Positions 8,062-29,402 of a stretch of DNA of 64,000 bases are shown here, one piece after another; positions within the stretch are counted from its first letter, which is position 1, and the number at the start of each line of letters is the position of its first letter. This DNA comes from Metallumcola ferriviriculae. GTDB taxonomy: Bacteria > Bacillota > JADQBR01. The stretch covers positions 1,960,501 to 2,024,500 of the forward strand of contig NZ_CP121694.1 in NCBI RefSeq assembly GCF_035573695.1. The letters run 5' to 3'. Made by a program: the position numbers and the translations under genes. Below the pieces are notes generated by a model. That model saw nothing but the letters and a program-made list of their open reading frames with translations, did not search any database and was not told the origin of the DNA.

Positions 8062-8106
8062 CTCGTAATGCGCAGGTCGTCGGTTCAAATCCGACCATCA
8101 GCTCCA
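8062..8106 (+). tRNA. 3' half of a tRNA-Thr(CGU), pseudo-tRNA
   Basis: From the anticodon loop onward the sequence is a perfect tRNA: loop CTCGTAA (8062-8068, anticodon CGT 8064-8066), stem TGCGC, variable AGGTC, T arm GTCGG-TTCAAAT-CCGAC (8079-8095), acceptor strand CATCAGC, discriminator T and encoded CCA (8104-8106). Upstream bases cannot pair with the anticodon stem, so the 5' half is missing. The break falls at the anticodon loop, a usual crossover site for tyrosine integrases. Not a functional tRNA. Confidence 0.75.
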
Positions 8107-8219: not shown

Positions 8220-8248
8220 TTGCAGCCAACATCGTCATGTGTTATAAT
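8220..8248 (+). promoter_or_regulatory. Sigma-A-type promoter of the transposase
   Basis: TTGCAG (8220-8225) and TATAAT (8243-8248) are 17 bases apart, and TG one base before the -10 box gives an extended -10. It lies 26 bases before the transposase start. Confidence 0.7.
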
Positions 8249-8273
8249 ATACATAACGAGGAGGTGCAATCGA

Positions 8274-9884
8274 ATGGCAGCCATCGTATATCAGACAGAT
8301 AAGCGATCAGGGATTACATACGCCTATGAGTCCGTTTCTTACTGGGATAAGGACAAGCAGCAATCCCGGGCAAAAAGGACGCTCATCGGCCGGGTGGACA
8401 GTGAAACCAAAGAGATAGTCCCGACAGACGGTAGGGGCCGAAAAAAGAAAGAAGTGCCTGCGCCTCCCCAAAGAGGCCCTATTCCATCTGTTCAAACCTC
8501 AAGGTCTTTCTACGGAGCAACGTATCTGCTGGACGCTATTGGTGAAAAGCTCAGCATTACCGAGGATTTGAAACACTGTTTTCCAAGTATTTATTGGCAA
8601 ATTCTTTCGATTGTGTATTACCTGATTCTTGAGGATAAAAACCCCCTCTATCGTTTTGAAAAATGGAGCAGCTTACATAAGCATCCTTACGGTAAGAACA
8701 TAACCTCCCAGCGAAGCAGCGAACTCTTCACATCCATCACCGAAGAAGCAAAGAACAAATTCTTTCAGCTGCAAGGGAAACGGCGGACAGAAAAGGAGTT
8801 CTGGGCATATGACATTACTTCCATCTCCAGCTATTCTGAACATCTACGCCAAGTGCAATACGGCAAGAATAAAGAGAGCGATCCACTGGCTCAACTGAAC
8901 CTGGCGTTAGTGTTCGGTGAAAGGTCCAACCTTCCTTTTTATTACCGCAAACTGGCTGGAAACATTCCTGATTCCAAAACAATTAAGAATTTACTTGCTG
9001 ATTTGGATGTCCTTGGTTTTTCCAAAGTGAAGCTGGTTATGGACAGAGGCTTCTATAGTCAAGATAATATCAATGCCCTCTTTAAAGAACACTTGAAATT
9101 CCTGATCTCCGTAAAAATATCCCTCGCTTTTATCAGGAAAGAATTGGACCTCATCTACGATAAGTTTCGTATATTTGAACACTATAGCGAGAAATACGAG
9201 CTGTATTGCCATACAGTACAGACTAATTGGCTTTATACACAGTACCGTCCGTATAAAGGGGACACCCTCTCAGAACCCAGGCGCATCTACATTCACTATT
9301 ATTACAACATTGATAAAGCAGCTGAAGACGAAAAAGCCTTTGACCGAAAGTTAATCGCACTGCGCCATGAACTGGAGTCAGGTAAGAGGGTTCCTGAACA
9401 TGAAAACCTCTATAAAAAGTATTTCGAGACGAAAACTACGCCAAAACGAGGGACAAAGGTCACCGTCAATGAAGAGGCCGTTACTAAAGCAAAACGGTAT
9501 TATGGATTCTTTGCCCTTTTGACTAATGAAAAGATGGATGCCATTACCGCACTGGAGTTTTATCGCAACAAAGATGTGGTTGAAAAAGCATTTGGCAACC
9601 TTAAGGAACGTCTGAATATGCGCCGCACATTGGTTTCCTCGGAGCAAAGCCTTGACGGTAAACTATTTGTAGAGTTTGTGGCTCTCATCTATCTTTCTTA
9701 CATCAAAAAGCAGATGCAGGAGACGCATTTATTCAAAAATTATACCTTGCAGAGCGCTCTCGATAAACTTGACGTCATTGAATGTTTTGAAGCGCCCGGC
9801 CAGAAACTGCGTGTTGGTGAGCTTCTTGAGAAACAGAAGGAAATCTATATAGGCTTGGGCGTTGTTCCGCCCTCCTCGTTATGA
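8274..9884 (+). CDS. IS1634-family DDE transposase
   Basis: 536 residues from ATG 8274, chosen because CGAGGAGGTG (8257-8265) is correctly spaced; an upstream in-frame start at 8220 overlaps the promoter. The IS4-superfamily DDE core is visible: 'WAYDITSISSYS' (first Asp), 'VKLVMDRGFYSQDNI' (second Asp) and 'VEKAFGNLKERLNMRR' (Glu and the basic C1 signature). It cuts and pastes the element. The frame is intact and full length for the family. The gene fills the IS, and nothing else is encoded in it. Confidence 0.92.
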   Translation: MAAIVYQTDKRSGITYAYESVSYWDKDKQQSRAKRTLIGRVDSETKEIVPTDGRGRKKKEVPAPPQRGPIPSVQTSRSFYGATYLLDAIGEKLSITEDLKHCFPSIYWQILSIVYYLILEDKNPLYRFEKWSSLHKHPYGKNITSQRSSELFTSITEEAKNKFFQLQGKRRTEKEFWAYDITSISSYSEHLRQVQYGKNKESDPLAQLNLALVFGERSNLPFYYRKLAGNIPDSKTIKNLLADLDVLGFSKVKLVMDRGFYSQDNINALFKEHLKFLISVKISLAFIRKELDLIYDKFRIFEHYSEKYELYCHTVQTNWLYTQYRPYKGDTLSEPRRIYIHYYYNIDKAAEDEKAFDRKLIALRHELESGKRVPEHENLYKKYFETKTTPKRGTKVTVNEEAVTKAKRYYGFFALLTNEKMDAITALEFYRNKDVVEKAFGNLKERLNMRRTLVSSEQSLDGKLFVEFVALIYLSYIKKQMQETHLFKNYTLQSALDKLDVIECFEAPGQKLRVGELLEKQKEIYIGLGVVPPSSL

Positions 9885-21288: not shown

Positions 21289-21479
21289 GCGGTGTCTGTG
21301 CACTTGTTAAACGGGGCATAGTCTTGAGTTTTTTTGTTGGCAAACCCCAGTTCCCGTGTCAATTTTTTCCTTAACTATTATGGGAATATTTTGAATTTAA
21401 AAAAGGAATCTATCATCAAAATATAGAATTGTACAAAAAAGTTAATGTTAAGAATATTGAATATGGGAGGATGCAGAAC

Positions 21480-22247
21480 GTGGCTTTTGAAACTATTGCT
21501 TTGGAGAAGAAAGATGGGACGGCAGTATTGACTTTAAATCGACCTGAAAAATTAAATGCTGTCAATATGACCATGAGAGCGGAAATTTTATCGGTCCTTG
21601 CTGACCTGGAACAGGACGAGGAAGTTAAAGTCTTAATTATCACCGGCGCTGGGCGGGGATTCTGTGCCGGGGCTGACATTAATGAATTTGCTGCTGGTTC
21701 CGATGATGCAGATTTACAGAAGGAAATTAACAAAAAGCTATTGGAAATGGCCCGGGCGTTTTTTAAATTTGAGAAACCGGTGCTGGGAGCAATCAATGGT
21801 GCGGCGGCTGGAGACGGTGCCCAGTGGGCGCTGGCGTTTGACTTAAATGTTGCTTCCGAAAAGGCGAAATTTGCCTGGCCGGCGACGTACCTAGGCATCT
21901 TGTGACCGTACGGTATTATCCGACTTCCGGGAGAAGTCGGGCGTTTCCGAGCTAAAGAGGTGCTAATGACCAGAAAGTTTGTCACTGCCGAGGAAGCAGT
22001 CCAATGGGGTTTTGTTACAAAAGTGGTTCCCCATGACCAGCTGATGGCAGAAACTATGAAGCTTGCTGACGAAATCAAAAAAATGCCGCCGCTGTCTATC
22101 AAGGCGGTTAAAAAGGCTGTCAACAGGGGATTTGAGGGTTACGAGTATGCAGAAAGCGTCCTGGCTAAGCTGCAGCAGACGGAAGATGCTGCAGAGGGGG
22201 CAAAGGCTTTTCTGGAAAAGAGAGAGCCGAACTTTAAAGGTGTGTAG
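21480..22247 (+). pseudogene. Crotonase-family gene with one in-frame TGA (nonsense or selenocysteine)
   Basis: Starting at GTG 21480 (GGGAGG at 21465-21470), the frame is open for 141 codons, meets TGA at 21903-21905 and runs on in the same frame to TAG 22247. Read through, it gives 255 residues, exactly the crotonase length, ending 'FLEKREPNFKGV' as these enzymes do. 'GRGFCAGADINEFA' and 'INGAAAGDGAQWALAFDL' are oxyanion-hole segments. Both catalytic Glu positions of hydratases are altered (Gln and Ala). The TGA falls in the active-site turn ('YLGIL', stop, 'PYGIIRLPGEVG'). There is no other lesion. A perfect hairpin begins 14 bases after the TGA. Either a young nonsense mutation or a Sec codon fits; a sequencing error is also possible. 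Confidence 0.6.
21920..21940 (+). other. Hairpin just after the in-frame TGA, possible bacterial SECIS
   Basis: CCGACTTC (21920-21927) pairs perfectly with GAAGTCGG (21933-21940), leaving the loop CGGGA. It starts 14 bases after TGA 21905. Spacing, stem length and a G in the first two loop bases meet the published bacterial SECIS description. The same bases encode the conserved 'RLPxxVG' of crotonases, so the pairing could be chance. Confidence 0.3.
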
Positions 22248-22259
22248 TTCGGGCAATAT

Positions 22260-22289
22260 GTCGACGATTCGAATCCGACCATCAGCTCC
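22260..22289 (+). tRNA. Degenerate 3' end of tRNA-Thr, second copy
   Basis: The run TTCGAATCCGACC then ATCAGCTCC matches the T loop and acceptor end of the tRNA fragment at 8084-8104 with one change in 22 bases. Two further changes spoil the T stem. There is no anticodon arm. It starts 13 bases after the crotonase stop and is followed by a terminator, as real tRNA genes often are. Not functional. Confidence 0.6.
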
Positions 22290-22297
22290 TTAATATC

Positions 22298-22332
22298 AAC
22301 GCCTCCGGTTTTTTCTCCCGGAGGCGTTTTTG
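22298..22332 (+). terminator. Rho-independent terminator
   Basis: A perfect 11-bp stem (22298-22308 with 22318-22328) is followed by TTTT and more T after a short gap. It ends the crotonase transcript. Confidence 0.85.
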
Positions 22333-24840: not shown

Positions 24841-26214
24841 ATGAGTATTATCAAGGATATTATTTCCAGGTACAATCACATACTTGACTTTTCTTTCGAT
24901 GAGTTTGTTATAAGCGATGGTGAGGGTGTCTTGCTTTATGCCAACGCAGCTTGTGAAAGGCATTACGGAGTTAAGGTTGAGTACTTAATTGGCAAACATA
25001 CTTCTGAGCTTGAAAGAGAAGGAATTTATCATCCGGCAGTAATTCCTTTGGCACTGAAGGAAAGAAGAAAAGTTACCATTATCCAGGATACTCAGATTGG
25101 CCGAAAAACAATTGTCACCGCTAATCCGGTATTTGATGATACTGGCAACATTGAGCTAGTTGTGGTTAACGCTAGAGATATTTCTGAAGTATCGGACTTA
25201 AAAGAAAAATTAGAACAGACTCAGCAATTAGTGAAACGTTATTCCGAAGAACTCAATGTTCTTCGTAGAGAGCAAATTGAGGTTGAAGGAATAATAGCGA
25301 AGAGCAAACAAATGCAGGAAATTATGGATTTGATCAGAAAAGTGGCGCCAACCAGTTCAACGGTGATGTTATTAGGGGAGACCGGGGTTGGTAAAGATGT
25401 TCTTGCTAGAGGGATACACAAAGTTAGCAAGAAAAAACAAGGGCCTTTTATACGCATCAATTGCGGTGCCATTCCCGGGCCATTATTAGAATCAGAGTTG
25501 TTTGGGTATGAAGCTGGCGCTTTTAGTGGCGCAAAGAAAACGGGCAAAATTGGTTTAGTTGAATTAGCTAATGGTGGAACCCTTTTCCTAGATGAAGTTG
25601 CGGATTTGCCTATTGACTTACAGGTAAAATTACTCCAGGTTATTCAAGAAAGAGAAATGATGCGAGTGGGTGGCACAAAGCATATAAAAGTAGACGCTCG
25701 TATAATCTCAGCTACTAATAAAGATATTGAAACAATGGTTCATGATAATTTGTTCAGAGAGGATTTATTTTATCGACTGCATGTAATACCGATAAGAATT
25801 CCACCCCTGCGACAGCGTCCAGAAGATGTTTTTGCATTTATTCAACATTTTGGTCATCGCCTAAATACGTTTTATAATATCAATAAGCAGCTTCATCCTC
25901 AGACAATTGACGTTTTAGTGAATCATGATTGGCCGGGAAATGTGAGGGAGTTGGAAAACTTTTTAGAAAGGCTCCTGCTTACTGTTGATCGGGAAATGAT
26001 AACTCCTGAGGAGTTACCTGATAATGTCTTTCGAAAGAAGGTTAACGTGCCTGTTGGCCAGCGGACGTTAAATGAAATACTAAGTGAAGTGGAAAGAGAA
26101 GTTGTTTTAAGAGTATATAAAAGATTCGGCTCCAGCTATAAGGTTGCAAGAGAACTAGGCATTAGTCAGCGGACTGCCTTGAGAAAAATTAATAAATATA
26201 TGGAAGAACCATAA
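24841..26214 (+). CDS. Sigma-54-dependent activator with PAS sensor domain
   Basis: 457 residues from ATG 24841. A PAS domain covers about residues 10-118 ('DEFVISDGEGVLLYANAAC'), a coiled linker follows (118-150), then the AAA+ activator core: Walker A 'GETGVGKD' (179-186), the sigma-54 contact loop 'GAFSGA' (226-231, usually GAFTGA), Walker B 'GGTLFLDEVADL' and 'LFYRLHVIPIRIPPLR'. The end is a Fis-type helix-turn-helix ('VARELGISQRTALRKINKY'). It uses ATP to open sigma-54 polymerase at -24/-12 promoters. Four such promoters lie in this window, the nearest 160 bases downstream. The PAS domain probably senses a pathway metabolite; no ligand can be named. Confidence 0.93.
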   Translation: MSIIKDIISRYNHILDFSFDEFVISDGEGVLLYANAACERHYGVKVEYLIGKHTSELEREGIYHPAVIPLALKERRKVTIIQDTQIGRKTIVTANPVFDDTGNIELVVVNARDISEVSDLKEKLEQTQQLVKRYSEELNVLRREQIEVEGIIAKSKQMQEIMDLIRKVAPTSSTVMLLGETGVGKDVLARGIHKVSKKKQGPFIRINCGAIPGPLLESELFGYEAGAFSGAKKTGKIGLVELANGGTLFLDEVADLPIDLQVKLLQVIQEREMMRVGGTKHIKVDARIISATNKDIETMVHDNLFREDLFYRLHVIPIRIPPLRQRPEDVFAFIQHFGHRLNTFYNINKQLHPQTIDVLVNHDWPGNVRELENFLERLLLTVDREMITPEELPDNVFRKKVNVPVGQRTLNEILSEVEREVVLRVYKRFGSSYKVARELGISQRTALRKINKYMEEP

Positions 26215-26289
26215 GCCATTAAGGGCTGATAATGAGCCATTGGTGGCTTAGTCCAATTTTGGCACCATACTACTGCTATTATGGTATTT

Positions 26290-26340
26290 ATTCCTCGGGG
26301 CAAGTCACTACTGACTTACACCGGGGAATGTCTGTTTTTA
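26290..26340 (+). terminator. Large hairpin terminator after the activator gene
   Basis: ATTCCTCGG (26290-26298) pairs with CCGGGGAAT (26321-26329), with an inner perfect hairpin AAGTCA-CTAC-TGACTT (26302-26317), and TTTTTA follows. It probably ends the activator transcript. The inner palindrome is also placed where an enhancer for the promoter at 26374 would be. Confidence 0.6.
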
Positions 26341-26373
26341 GTAAAAGCATTGTGGTGTAAGGGTTTTAAGCAT

Positions 26374-26389
26374 TGGTACAGGACTTGCT
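26374..26389 (+). promoter_or_regulatory. rpoN-dependent: Sigma-54 (-24/-12) promoter of the symporter operon
   Basis: TGGTAC-AGGAC-TTGCT matches the -24/-12 consensus with exact spacing. It lies about 80 bases before the small accessory gene and directly downstream of a sigma-54 activator gene. Confidence 0.85.
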
Positions 26390-26467
26390 AATATATATAG
26401 AAGATTCAGAACATTTTAACAATAAACGTAATGGGTCAAAGTGGCAGTTACGGGGGGAGGTGTTATT

Positions 26468-26575
26468 TTGTTCGGTATGCCTGTAGTAACGTTTTTCTTG
26501 ATGCTTGCAATACCGGTAATGGGCATTGTCAGTGGAGTGGCTTACATGTGGTACTACGAAAAGTATGAACAGTGA
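26468..26575 (+). CDS. Symporter small accessory protein
   Basis: 35 residues from TTG 26468, with a strong site GGGGGGAGGTG before it and the symporter gene 20 bases after. A single membrane span ('VVTFFLMLAIPVMGIVSGVAYMWYY') fills most of it, followed by a charged tail. Very small one-span proteins of this kind are encoded directly before Na+/solute symporters in many bacteria and are thought to be transporter accessory subunits, as the small subunit is for DASS/SSS relatives. Its tight link with the symporter and good ribosome site make a real gene likely although it is so short. Confidence 0.75.
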   Translation: MFGMPVVTFFLMLAIPVMGIVSGVAYMWYYEKYEQ

Positions 26576-26594
26576 ATGAAAGGAGGAGAGCATT

Positions 26595-28049
26595 ATGCTT
26601 ATAACGGTAGTTGCTATTTATCTATTGATAGTTTTGGGCATTGGTCTTTGGTCAGCAAAGGGTAAGGAGAGTATGCGAGACTTTTATATCGCTGGGGCTG
26701 GGATTGGTTTTATTCCGGTAGCTTTCTCCGCTTCGGCCTCTACAATGAGCGGCTGGGGTTTCGTAGGTGGTCCGGGTGCACTTTATGCTTATGGGTTCAG
26801 TCCTATATTAATTATTGAGTTGTTTGCAGTTATTGGTACTGCAGTAGCGTATTTCTTATTGGCAGCACCTATTCGAAAGATGGTTGATTCCCACGGGGTA
26901 CTGACTATTCCAGATATTATAGACGCTAAGTTTGGTGGCAAATTGGCTGGGACGCTATCGGGGATAGCCATCCTGGTGGGCTGCGTTGCCTACCTTTTGG
27001 CACAGTATATAGCTTTAGGAGCCATTGGTGAAGCTATCTTTGGTATTCCCTTTGCAACTTTCGTGATCATAGGCGCTGTGCTAATGATAATCTACTCTGT
27101 TGCAGGTGGAATTGCGGCTTCCATTTATACGGACACATTTCAAGCAGTAGTTATGATAATTAGCGCAATTGTTATACTATTTACCGGACTTAAGGTTGGC
27201 GGTGGTTTCACCAACATATTTTCTACCTTGTCGCAGCAGCCCCACTACATGGATGCAGTTAAACCGGTTGTAGAAGGTGGATCAAGTATTTGGGGCTTAA
27301 TATCCTGGTTTTTGTTAATGGGTATCGGGCTTGGTGGTTTACCACACGTGGTGACCAGGTTTTACACTTTAAACAAAATCCAATTTCTGAAATACGCCTG
27401 TCTGGTAGGTACATTTTCTTACGCCATTATGGTTATGGGGGAATTTTCCGGCTTTTGGATGAAGTACTTGGAGATTACCGGGGCGGTAAAACCTTTGGCT
27501 AATCCCGATATGGCGGGACCGACATTTATTAAGCTCTATTTTGGGCCGGTGGCTGGCGGGGTAATGACTGCTGCAATTTTAGCTGCAATTATGTCTACAG
27601 CAGATTCCTTTTTGGTGACTGCGAGTTCAGTTGTCAGCAGAGATTTCTATCAAAAATATTCAAAACGCGAGCTAACGCCAAAACAGGAATTGAAAGTTGC
27701 CAGGTGGTCAGTAGTTGTTATTGGTTTGATTCCCATATTATTTGCCCTTAACCCTCCGAATTTAATTATTTGGATTGGTTCGGCTGCATGGGGTATCTTT
27801 TCAGCAAGTATTTTTATTCCTTTGGTAATGGGATTGCGATGGGAAAAAGCTACCCGAAATGGCGCCAGTGCTTCCATAATTATTGGACTGGTTTTCAGCT
27901 TGGGGTTATTCCTGTTGAGACAGATTTATGGTTTTGAAACTTATTTGGAGCCGGGTGCCTGGGGTATGATTTTTGCTTTTGCGGCCATCGTTGTTGTGTC
28001 ACTGGCTGAGAGCAAAAAAATTGTAAAAGAAAAGGAAATTGCTTCCTAG
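26595..28049 (+). CDS. Sodium:solute symporter (SSS family)
   Basis: 484 residues from ATG 26595 with AAAGGAGGAG upstream. About 13 hydrophobic segments span the length. Family motifs are visible: 'YIAGAGIGFIPVAFSASASTMSGW' at the start (core helix with the substrate site), 'SVAGGIAASIYTDTFQAVVM' (SSS signature) and 'ILAAIMSTADSFLVTASS' (Na+ site Ser residues). It imports a small organic solute with Na+. Closest in look to the PutP/PanF/acetate-type branch. Being co-transcribed with an acyl-CoA ligase and an amidohydrolase suggests an organic acid as substrate. Confidence 0.9.
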   Translation: MLITVVAIYLLIVLGIGLWSAKGKESMRDFYIAGAGIGFIPVAFSASASTMSGWGFVGGPGALYAYGFSPILIIELFAVIGTAVAYFLLAAPIRKMVDSHGVLTIPDIIDAKFGGKLAGTLSGIAILVGCVAYLLAQYIALGAIGEAIFGIPFATFVIIGAVLMIIYSVAGGIAASIYTDTFQAVVMIISAIVILFTGLKVGGGFTNIFSTLSQQPHYMDAVKPVVEGGSSIWGLISWFLLMGIGLGGLPHVVTRFYTLNKIQFLKYACLVGTFSYAIMVMGEFSGFWMKYLEITGAVKPLANPDMAGPTFIKLYFGPVAGGVMTAAILAAIMSTADSFLVTASSVVSRDFYQKYSKRELTPKQELKVARWSVVVIGLIPILFALNPPNLIIWIGSAAWGIFSASIFIPLVMGLRWEKATRNGASASIIIGLVFSLGLFLLRQIYGFETYLEPGAWGMIFAFAAIVVVSLAESKKIVKEKEIAS

Positions 28050-28061
28050 GGAGGTCGCTTG

Positions 28062-29402
28062 ATGAGCTGGAAAAAATATTGGGATGAAGAATTGGAGACT
28101 ATGTCGCCATCTAAGTTAGAGGTGTTGGAGGAGAAGAAGCTGCGTCAGCAAATTGAATACTGTTTTGCGACAAGCAGTTTTTATAGAGATAAGATGCAGT
28201 TGGCCGGTATTAAACTGGAAGACATACAATGCAAGCAGGATTTAAGTAAGTTTCCCTTTACTACAAAAGATGAAATCCGAGAAAATCAGGAAACAGAGTC
28301 GCCGTATGGGGGTTACTTAAGCTCATCCCCTGAAAAACTTAAACGTGTGCATGGGACTTCTGGTACCACCGGGCGCTTTATTTTAACTTGTTTTACTCAA
28401 AACGATGTGCGTGTAGCTGCTGAATGCGGAGCAAGGAGTTTGTGGACAGCCGGCATGAGGCCTGATGATACAGTGTTTCATGTGTTTAATTACAGCATCT
28501 ACGTTGGCGGGTTGACTGACCACCTTTCGGCAGAATATCTGGGAGCGACCGTGGTTCCCATAGGGGTGGGGCAGTCCCAGGCATTTATTAGCCTTGCAAA
28601 GGATATCCAACCTACAGTTATCACCAGTACTCCTTCCTACCCTGTCTATTTGGCAAAAAAACTGAGGGATGAATATGGTATGGAACCGAAAGAACTTGGG
28701 CTGAAGAAAGGTTTATTCGGTGGTGAACCGGGAGCGGGTATTCCAGCCACTCGTAAGCGTTTGGAAGAAATGTGGGGCTTTGAAGCTAGGGATGCCAACT
28801 ATGGTCTTGGCGAAGTGTTGGCCATATTTGCTTCGGAATGTGAAGCTGAAGACGGACTTCATTTCTGCGGTCAAGGTGCTTTGATTGTTGAACTAATTGA
28901 CCCAGATACAGCTGACGTAAAAAAGATAGAAGCTGGAGCGGAAGGTGAATTGGTTCTCACAACTTTAGAAAGAGAGGCCACCCCGTTAATCCGCTACCGT
29001 ACAAGGGACTTTGTCAGGGTTGTTACCACGGAACCTTGTTCATGCGGCAGGACTAGTTTTCGCTTTAAAGTTATTGGTCGGAGTGATGATATGCTATGGG
29101 TTCGTGGTGTTAACGTTTTCCCTAAGGCAATTGAAGAGACAGTGATGAAGCTGCGGCCTCAGGTTACCGGTGAGCATCAAATAATCCTTGATCGTGAAGG
29201 GGCAATAGATATCTTACCTTTAAAAATCGAATACGCAGAACATATTGAATTAAACCATTTAGATAAATTAAGGAAGTTTATTGAGGATAGATTTTCTGAT
29301 GAACTGAGGGTTACAACAAAAGTCGAACTAGTGCCTTCAGGATCCTTGCCAACCTTTGAGAAAAAGGCCAAACGTATTAAGAAAGTTTTCAAGGGAGAAT
29401 AA
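28062..29402 (+). CDS. Phenylacetate-CoA ligase-like acyl-CoA synthetase
   Basis: 446 residues from ATG 28062 with AGGGAGG at 28048-28054. The size and sequence fit the PaaK branch of adenylate-forming enzymes: 'HGTSGTTGR' (97-105, ATP loop), 'YGLGEVLAIFASECE' (about 247-261), 'ATPLIRYRTRDFV' and 'GRSDDMLWVRGVNVFP' near the C-terminus. These enzymes make an acyl-AMP and then the CoA thioester of an aromatic or other carboxylic acid. The third gene of the sigma-54-controlled operon, it probably activates the acid brought in by the symporter. The exact acid is not readable from the sequence. Confidence 0.88.
   Translation: MSWKKYWDEELETMSPSKLEVLEEKKLRQQIEYCFATSSFYRDKMQLAGIKLEDIQCKQDLSKFPFTTKDEIRENQETESPYGGYLSSSPEKLKRVHGTSGTTGRFILTCFTQNDVRVAAECGARSLWTAGMRPDDTVFHVFNYSIYVGGLTDHLSAEYLGATVVPIGVGQSQAFISLAKDIQPTVITSTPSYPVYLAKKLRDEYGMEPKELGLKKGLFGGEPGAGIPATRKRLEEMWGFEARDANYGLGEVLAIFASECEAEDGLHFCGQGALIVELIDPDTADVKKIEAGAEGELVLTTLEREATPLIRYRTRDFVRVVTTEPCSCGRTSFRFKVIGRSDDMLWVRGVNVFPKAIEETVMKLRPQVTGEHQIILDREGAIDILPLKIEYAEHIELNHLDKLRKFIEDRFSDELRVTTKVELVPSGSLPTFEKKAKRIKKVFKGE

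Follow-up and report, generated by a model that had tools for sequence, protein, structure and literature searches.

A probable recoded gene of the crotonase superfamily

A gene on the + strand at positions 21480..22247 of the window (the whole 64,000-nucleotide stretch of DNA analysed here) carries an in-frame TGA, and comparison of its sequence with its orthologues indicates that it is broken only in appearance: its product is almost certainly a functional enzyme that contains selenium and belongs to the crotonase superfamily, whose members handle acyl-CoA. The best explanation of the data as a whole is a full-length crotonase in which UGA142 is decoded as selenocysteine (Sec) and Sec acts on acyl-CoA, and we put its probability at about 0.88. 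Our confidence is high for the recoding and modest for the mechanism.

With TGA142 (21903..21905, + strand) read as Sec, the gene has 255 codons, a GTG start and a TAG end. A Shine-Dalgarno-like stretch, GGGAGG, was read from the sequence ahead of the GTG start (21463..21479, + strand), and purine-rich stretches are likewise found upstream of the start in the orthologues. The sole internal TGA of the frame sits between YLGIL and PYGIIRLP. When this codon was translated as Cys, Pfam PF00378 matched residues 9–254 (E-value 3.8e-58), and the only other Pfam match was PF16113. The first-pass annotation had described a crotonase gene of 255 codons, interrupted in frame by a single TGA at codon 142, and translation bore out both the frame and its ends.

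The TGA is shared by all close homologues

Orthologues were searched for in 149 related genomes and, in a second search, in 398 genomes sampled from the phylum. Among the 149 genomes, five others had a match at 73–76% identity, each with exactly one internal TGA. After the second search the carriers numbered eight: the window host; G013, G097 and G130, which form one genus; G235 and G259, which belong to that family but to a second genus; and G083 and G117, from another family. The seven orthologues, found in Thermincola-type genomes and in the other family, are 73–80% identical, share the architecture of the window gene and are open throughout apart from the TGA. In the alignment of the eight species (4 genera, 3 families), the TGA is invariant, being codon 142 within LGIL*PYGIIRLP in 8/8 sequences. 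Past the eight carriers the next matches are ordinary hydratases, and the E-value drops from 1e-153 to 1e-60. A scan across GTDB yielded these Thermincola records again and none closer. No close Cys orthologue was found among the genomes searched, and TGG or another sense codon at position 142 is absent from all orthologues. The gene is carried by 5/10 genomes in the class of G013 and 2/3 in the class of G117, with TGA every time, and by 1/3 genomes (the host) in the host's own family. Judged from these sequences, the Sec crotonase family is patchy, several genera deep and, among the genomes searched, apparently Sec-only.

Purifying selection is equally strong on both sides of the TGA, with omega values of about 0.03–0.08 where dS could be estimated. 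In comparisons between families, pS is 0.67–0.99, close to saturation, and pN is 0.14–0.21 before the TGA vs. 0.11–0.17 after it. From the TGA to a possible internal ATG (codons 143–162), 19/20 residues are invariant and synonymous changes are frequent. The protein sequence is kept while synonymous sites change, and this segment is therefore translated in this frame.

A SECIS-like hairpin follows the TGA

A SECIS-like stem-loop (21919..21941, + strand) lies directly downstream of the TGA. It has 9 pairs, eight of them Watson-Crick (21920–21927 with 21933–21940) and one U-G (21919/21941), with the loop CGGGA at 21928–21932, and the spacing between the TGA and the 8-bp stem is 14 nt. The 8-bp perfect stem, the loop, the spacing and the presence of G among the first two bases of the loop had all been pointed out earlier, and each was confirmed. 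Of the window's 2064 TGA trinucleotides, 12 (0.6%) have an equally good hairpin in the same range, again with G at one of the first two loop positions, and a stem of at least 8 pairs with such a loop follows 4% of them. The probability of a chance origin, judged on the single sequence, is low but not negligible. Because the single-sequence folding energy is not significant (z = -1.0), the hairpin alone proves little, and the argument lies in its conservation among the orthologues.

In the eight-row alignment, the stem cells are paired in 94% of cases vs. 29–65% for slid versions. Stem changes among the orthologues include A-U to G-U and C-G to U-G, and no both-side compensatory changes were found in the eight sequences. 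The lower stem pairs are broken in G083, G117 and G235, leaving 6–7 pairs. The orthologues' stems close one pair further, with a GGY (GGU or GGC) or GUC triloop. Synonymous change is depleted at codons 147–156, with 4/9 invariant vs. 5/131 elsewhere (Fisher p = 9e-4). Rfam gave no credible match at the locus, either to a SECIS or to any other RNA family.

The host encodes the Sec machinery

All four sel genes whose presence had been proposed as a check on Sec decoding were found in the host genome: selA and selB are adjacent (C1:~336000-339260), the tRNA-Sec (selC) lies 5 kb further on (C1:344391-344483), and selD (C1:414315-415238) itself has an in-frame TGA and is of the Sec type. SelB and tRNA-Sec genes were present in 8/8 genomes checked, six of the eight gene-bearing species among them. 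The host also has two Sec-type formate dehydrogenase (FdhA) genes with an in-frame TGA (G000:C1:3480650-3482650 and 1238788-1240791), in which a hairpin of about this size, its loop rich in G, comes about 12 nt after the TGA. FdhA and SelD thus resemble the crotonase gene in their in-frame TGA, and FdhA also in the hairpin directly downstream, but both belong to well-known families with other folds and chemistry.

Taken together, these sequence data make decoding of UGA142 as Sec highly probable, and the tests suggested by the first-pass annotation, where they were run, all favored selenocysteine.

Alternatives to Sec decoding

The main alternative raised at the outset was a fresh nonsense mutation, with a sequencing error as a further one, that is, a pseudogene caught early. 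Decay of this kind has a likely precedent in the host, where another crotonase (C1:2141069-2141779) has a lone in-frame TAG at the position of the usual Gln. The TGA of the Sec crotonase, however, is common to eight species in independent assemblies, and codons downstream of it are under full purifying selection. Since the close homologues all carry the TGA itself, neither a sequencing error nor a fresh mutation accounts for it, and with the omega values this led us to reject the pseudogene explanation, whose probability is close to nil. Alternatively, the gene might make two polypeptides: one of 141 residues from the N-terminal part, and a second, C-terminal one whose translation restarts at the ATG of codon 163. 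This ATG is invariant, a GAGGTG stretch lies upstream of it and a AAAGAGGT-like sequence precedes it in some species. Against this, codons 143–162 show amino-acid conservation with synonymous drift and are translated in frame, and in the structural model the split would land within the spiral core. Selection beyond the TGA and conservation of codons 143–162 thus rule out pseudogene formation and sequencing error, and they make re-initiation at ATG163 very improbable.

Selection past the stop strictly demands read-through alone, and UGA142 might then be decoded under a reassigned code, or a near-cognate tRNA might insert a different residue such as Trp. TGA, however, terminates 9/38 window genes, from which we conclude that the code is standard, and TGA as a general sense codon was rejected. 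TGG and all sense codons are absent at position 142 in the orthologues, and the homologues show Cys or Pro rather than Trp. The host, in addition, has the Sec machinery and the SECIS-like hairpin. Decoding as an amino acid other than Sec is therefore very improbable, and Sec insertion is the reading retained below.

The active-site columns and the Cys-containing homologues

The catalytic Glu residues had been reported as absent, and the alignments agree: Gln115 (21822..21824, + strand) and Ala135 (21882..21884, + strand) occupy the columns of the first and second catalytic Glu of canonical hydratases. The Sec crotonase thus lacks the pair of glutamates on which catalytic enoyl-CoA hydratases rely. 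Canonical enoyl-CoA hydratases, 3-hydroxypropionyl-CoA dehydratase (5ZAI) and PaaG are its best sequence and fold matches, but it lacks both Glu residues, its active-site loop is one residue shorter and Sec replaces the usual Pro, which most canonical hydratases have in this column.

Cys occupies the Sec column in the PRK08139/ECHDC3-type crotonases L088-L090, in L053 and in PDB entries 3MYB (Mycobacterium smegmatis) and 2VX2 (human ECHDC3) (GLFC-ST vs. GILU-PY). These proteins have the crotonase fold and share with the Sec crotonase the one-residue loop deletion; the first Glu column is mostly Gln in them, as Gln115, and the second is without Glu. They differ in having Cys for Sec, and L088-L090 are 29–32% identical to the Sec crotonase. 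The crotonase L053, from G382, has Cys in the Sec column but Gly, not Gln, at the position of the first Glu, and is possibly an intermediate towards ECHDC3-type enzymes. It had been proposed that Cys in close homologues would favor Sec and that Ser or Trp would not. Cys, rather than Ser or Trp, was indeed found in the distant PRK08139/ECHDC3 types; it is not general in the superfamily, however, and the close homologues have TGA. Sec/Cys exchange is seen only at about 29–40% identity.

In the tree, the Sec clade is sister to the PRK08139/ECHDC3 clade with support of 83/87 (87/75 without the active-site columns), a relation that on these sequences is suggestive, not firm. With tree support below 95, the residues common to the Sec crotonase and the ECHDC3 types may be convergent. 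The Sec crotonase scores 179 bits against the PRK08139 model NF006008 (cut-off 313), far below the cut-off, and is therefore not a member of that family.

Structure and a possible role of Sec142

AlphaFold2 run on a 27-row alignment gave a confident crotonase fold (pLDDT 93.5), and pLDDT was 52 with an alignment of 7 close sequences. The best PDB matches of the model are hydratases and PaaG, mostly with TM of 0.85–0.93. In the model, Sec142 lies in the active-site loop at the N-terminus of a helix (143–153) that begins directly after it. The oxyanion-hole and CoA-binding segments are conserved.

In crotonase isomerases this active-site loop carries an acidic residue. In 4-chlorobenzoyl-CoA dehalogenase (1NZY) a nucleophile at the helix start, in place of the hydratase glutamates, is Asp145, in the same loop and at the start of the same helix. 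The dehalogenase has the crotonase fold and scores about 106 bits to the family profile, but its Asp145 is one column off, the aligner setting Sec142 on Asn144 with a register that the loop gap makes uncertain by one residue. The Trp137 partner of the dehalogenase is Ala135 in the Sec crotonase.

From these comparisons Sec142 is probably an active-site catalytic residue. We envisage that host SelB and tRNA-Sec read UGA142 as Sec at the hairpin directly downstream, to give a full-length 255-residue protein with the crotonase fold. The CoA-binding fold would be retained while Gln115 and Ala135 stand in for the hydratase glutamates. With both glutamates gone, the likeliest function would be selenolate attack on bound acyl-CoA: the selenolate of Sec142, activated by the helix dipole, would attack an acyl-CoA whose thioester carbonyl is polarized by the oxyanion hole, and a covalent seleno intermediate would result. 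With an enoyl-CoA this could be a conjugate addition; leaving-group displacement and acyl transfer are other possibilities. A nucleophilic role, rather than a redox or acid-base one, has in our judgment slightly less than an even chance.

Sec may instead be inserted for redox, peroxide- or metal-handling chemistry, with the crotonase fold as a scaffold. A redox role is what is generally assumed for the majority of selenoproteins that have no known function (PMC13188914). The gene that follows in three Thermincola-type genomes codes for a metal-binding protein that is MbdU-like and has several Sec residues, and both catalytic Glu residues are lost. However, no resolving CxxU/UxxC partner is found near Sec142, the crotonase fold is complete with its oxyanion-hole and CoA-binding segments kept, and the MbdU neighbor is not beside the gene in other genera or in the window. 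We consider a redox, peroxide- or metal-handling role less likely, though far from remote.

To our knowledge, no catalytic residue is settled for ECHDC3-type crotonases. The Cys in the Sec column may be that residue, its thiolate acting in the same role as the selenolate, which is a testable hint. We advance only tentatively, at rather less than even odds, the broader proposal that (i) a Sec-only crotonase family of anaerobic Bacillota performs non-redox covalent catalysis on acyl-CoA thioesters through a selenolate; and (ii) Cys is the overlooked catalytic residue of ECHDC3-type crotonases, the human protein included.

Relation to described selenoproteins

The first-pass annotation knew of no selenoprotein in this family. 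The literature does name a 'crotonase' selenoprotein: a 2022 list has a predicted 'crotonase/enoyl-CoA hydratase family' protein, KAA1296466.1 (PMC9312934). This entry appears to be the same as 'DsbA-like protein form 2 (crotonase/enoyl-CoA hydratase family protein)', MDP6049977.1, filed under PF01323 with the motif DxxUP in an inventory from 2026 that covers 119 families of prokaryotic selenoproteins (PMC13188914). It shares with the Sec crotonase the name and the UP dipeptide, but is set apart by these descriptors only, PF01323 and DxxUP vs. PF00378 and GILUP. None of the 119 families is a PF00378 family (PMC13188914). Literature searches on selenocysteine and selenoproteins in connection with Thermincola, crotonases or enoyl-CoA hydratases found no account of the Sec crotonase. 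The crotonase name is absent from the main text of Peng 2016, and among the best matches to NCBIfam models (June 2026) none is a selenoprotein crotonase and none is over its cut-off.

The Sec crotonase would thus be an added selenoprotein family, outside the usual thioredoxin-like and metal-bound kinds in both fold and chemistry. Automatic pipelines are expected to label it a pseudogene or two fragments. The homology filter of deep-Sep demands Cys-containing homologues among the best hits (PMC12013277), and filters of this kind could miss it.

Genomic surroundings and other observations

The Sec crotonase gene stands alone. A likely intrinsic terminator (CGCCTCCGG...CCGGAGGCG followed by a T-run; 22299..22332, + strand) was read from the sequence, its loop exceeding the limit of the terminator scan, which hence did not list it, and it suggests a single-gene transcript. 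No neighbors are common across genera, so the surroundings give no hint of function or substrate that would hold for every species, and an operon-based function was rejected.

Only in the Thermincola-type genus is the Sec crotonase gene directly followed by an MbdU-like/DUF5714 gene with in-frame TGAs (L068:10228-11106, and likewise in L069 and L070, on the reverse strand). Its product has the motifs SSCUGP and, at the C-terminus, CKTUS, and in G130 also an AhpD-like CEPU domain. It scores 396–406 bits to MbdU (cut-off 600).

The TAG-containing host crotonase (L100, G000:C1:2141069-2141779) lies outside the window and reads S*RL where its relatives have TQRL. No pyrrolysyl-tRNA synthetase of the host passes its cut-off. 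L100 is likely a plain pseudogene, and crotonase pseudogenes therefore occur in this host.

Two 3′-end copies of a tRNA-Thr(CGT) gene lie in the window, at 8062-8105 and 22263-22289, and an intact copy is at about G000:C1:1929558-1929632. The remnant at 22263-22289 is degraded and comes right after the stop codon of the Sec crotonase gene; an IS1634-family transposase gene (8220-9884) lies just after the other. The remnants may be traces of tRNA-targeted integration, which might have to do with the patchy distribution of the gene. Further on, at 24841-29402, the window has in a row a PrdR-like sigma-54 regulator, a sodium/solute symporter and a PaaK-like phenylacetate-CoA ligase homologue; the symporter superfamily alone is over its cut-off, and the others are below theirs.
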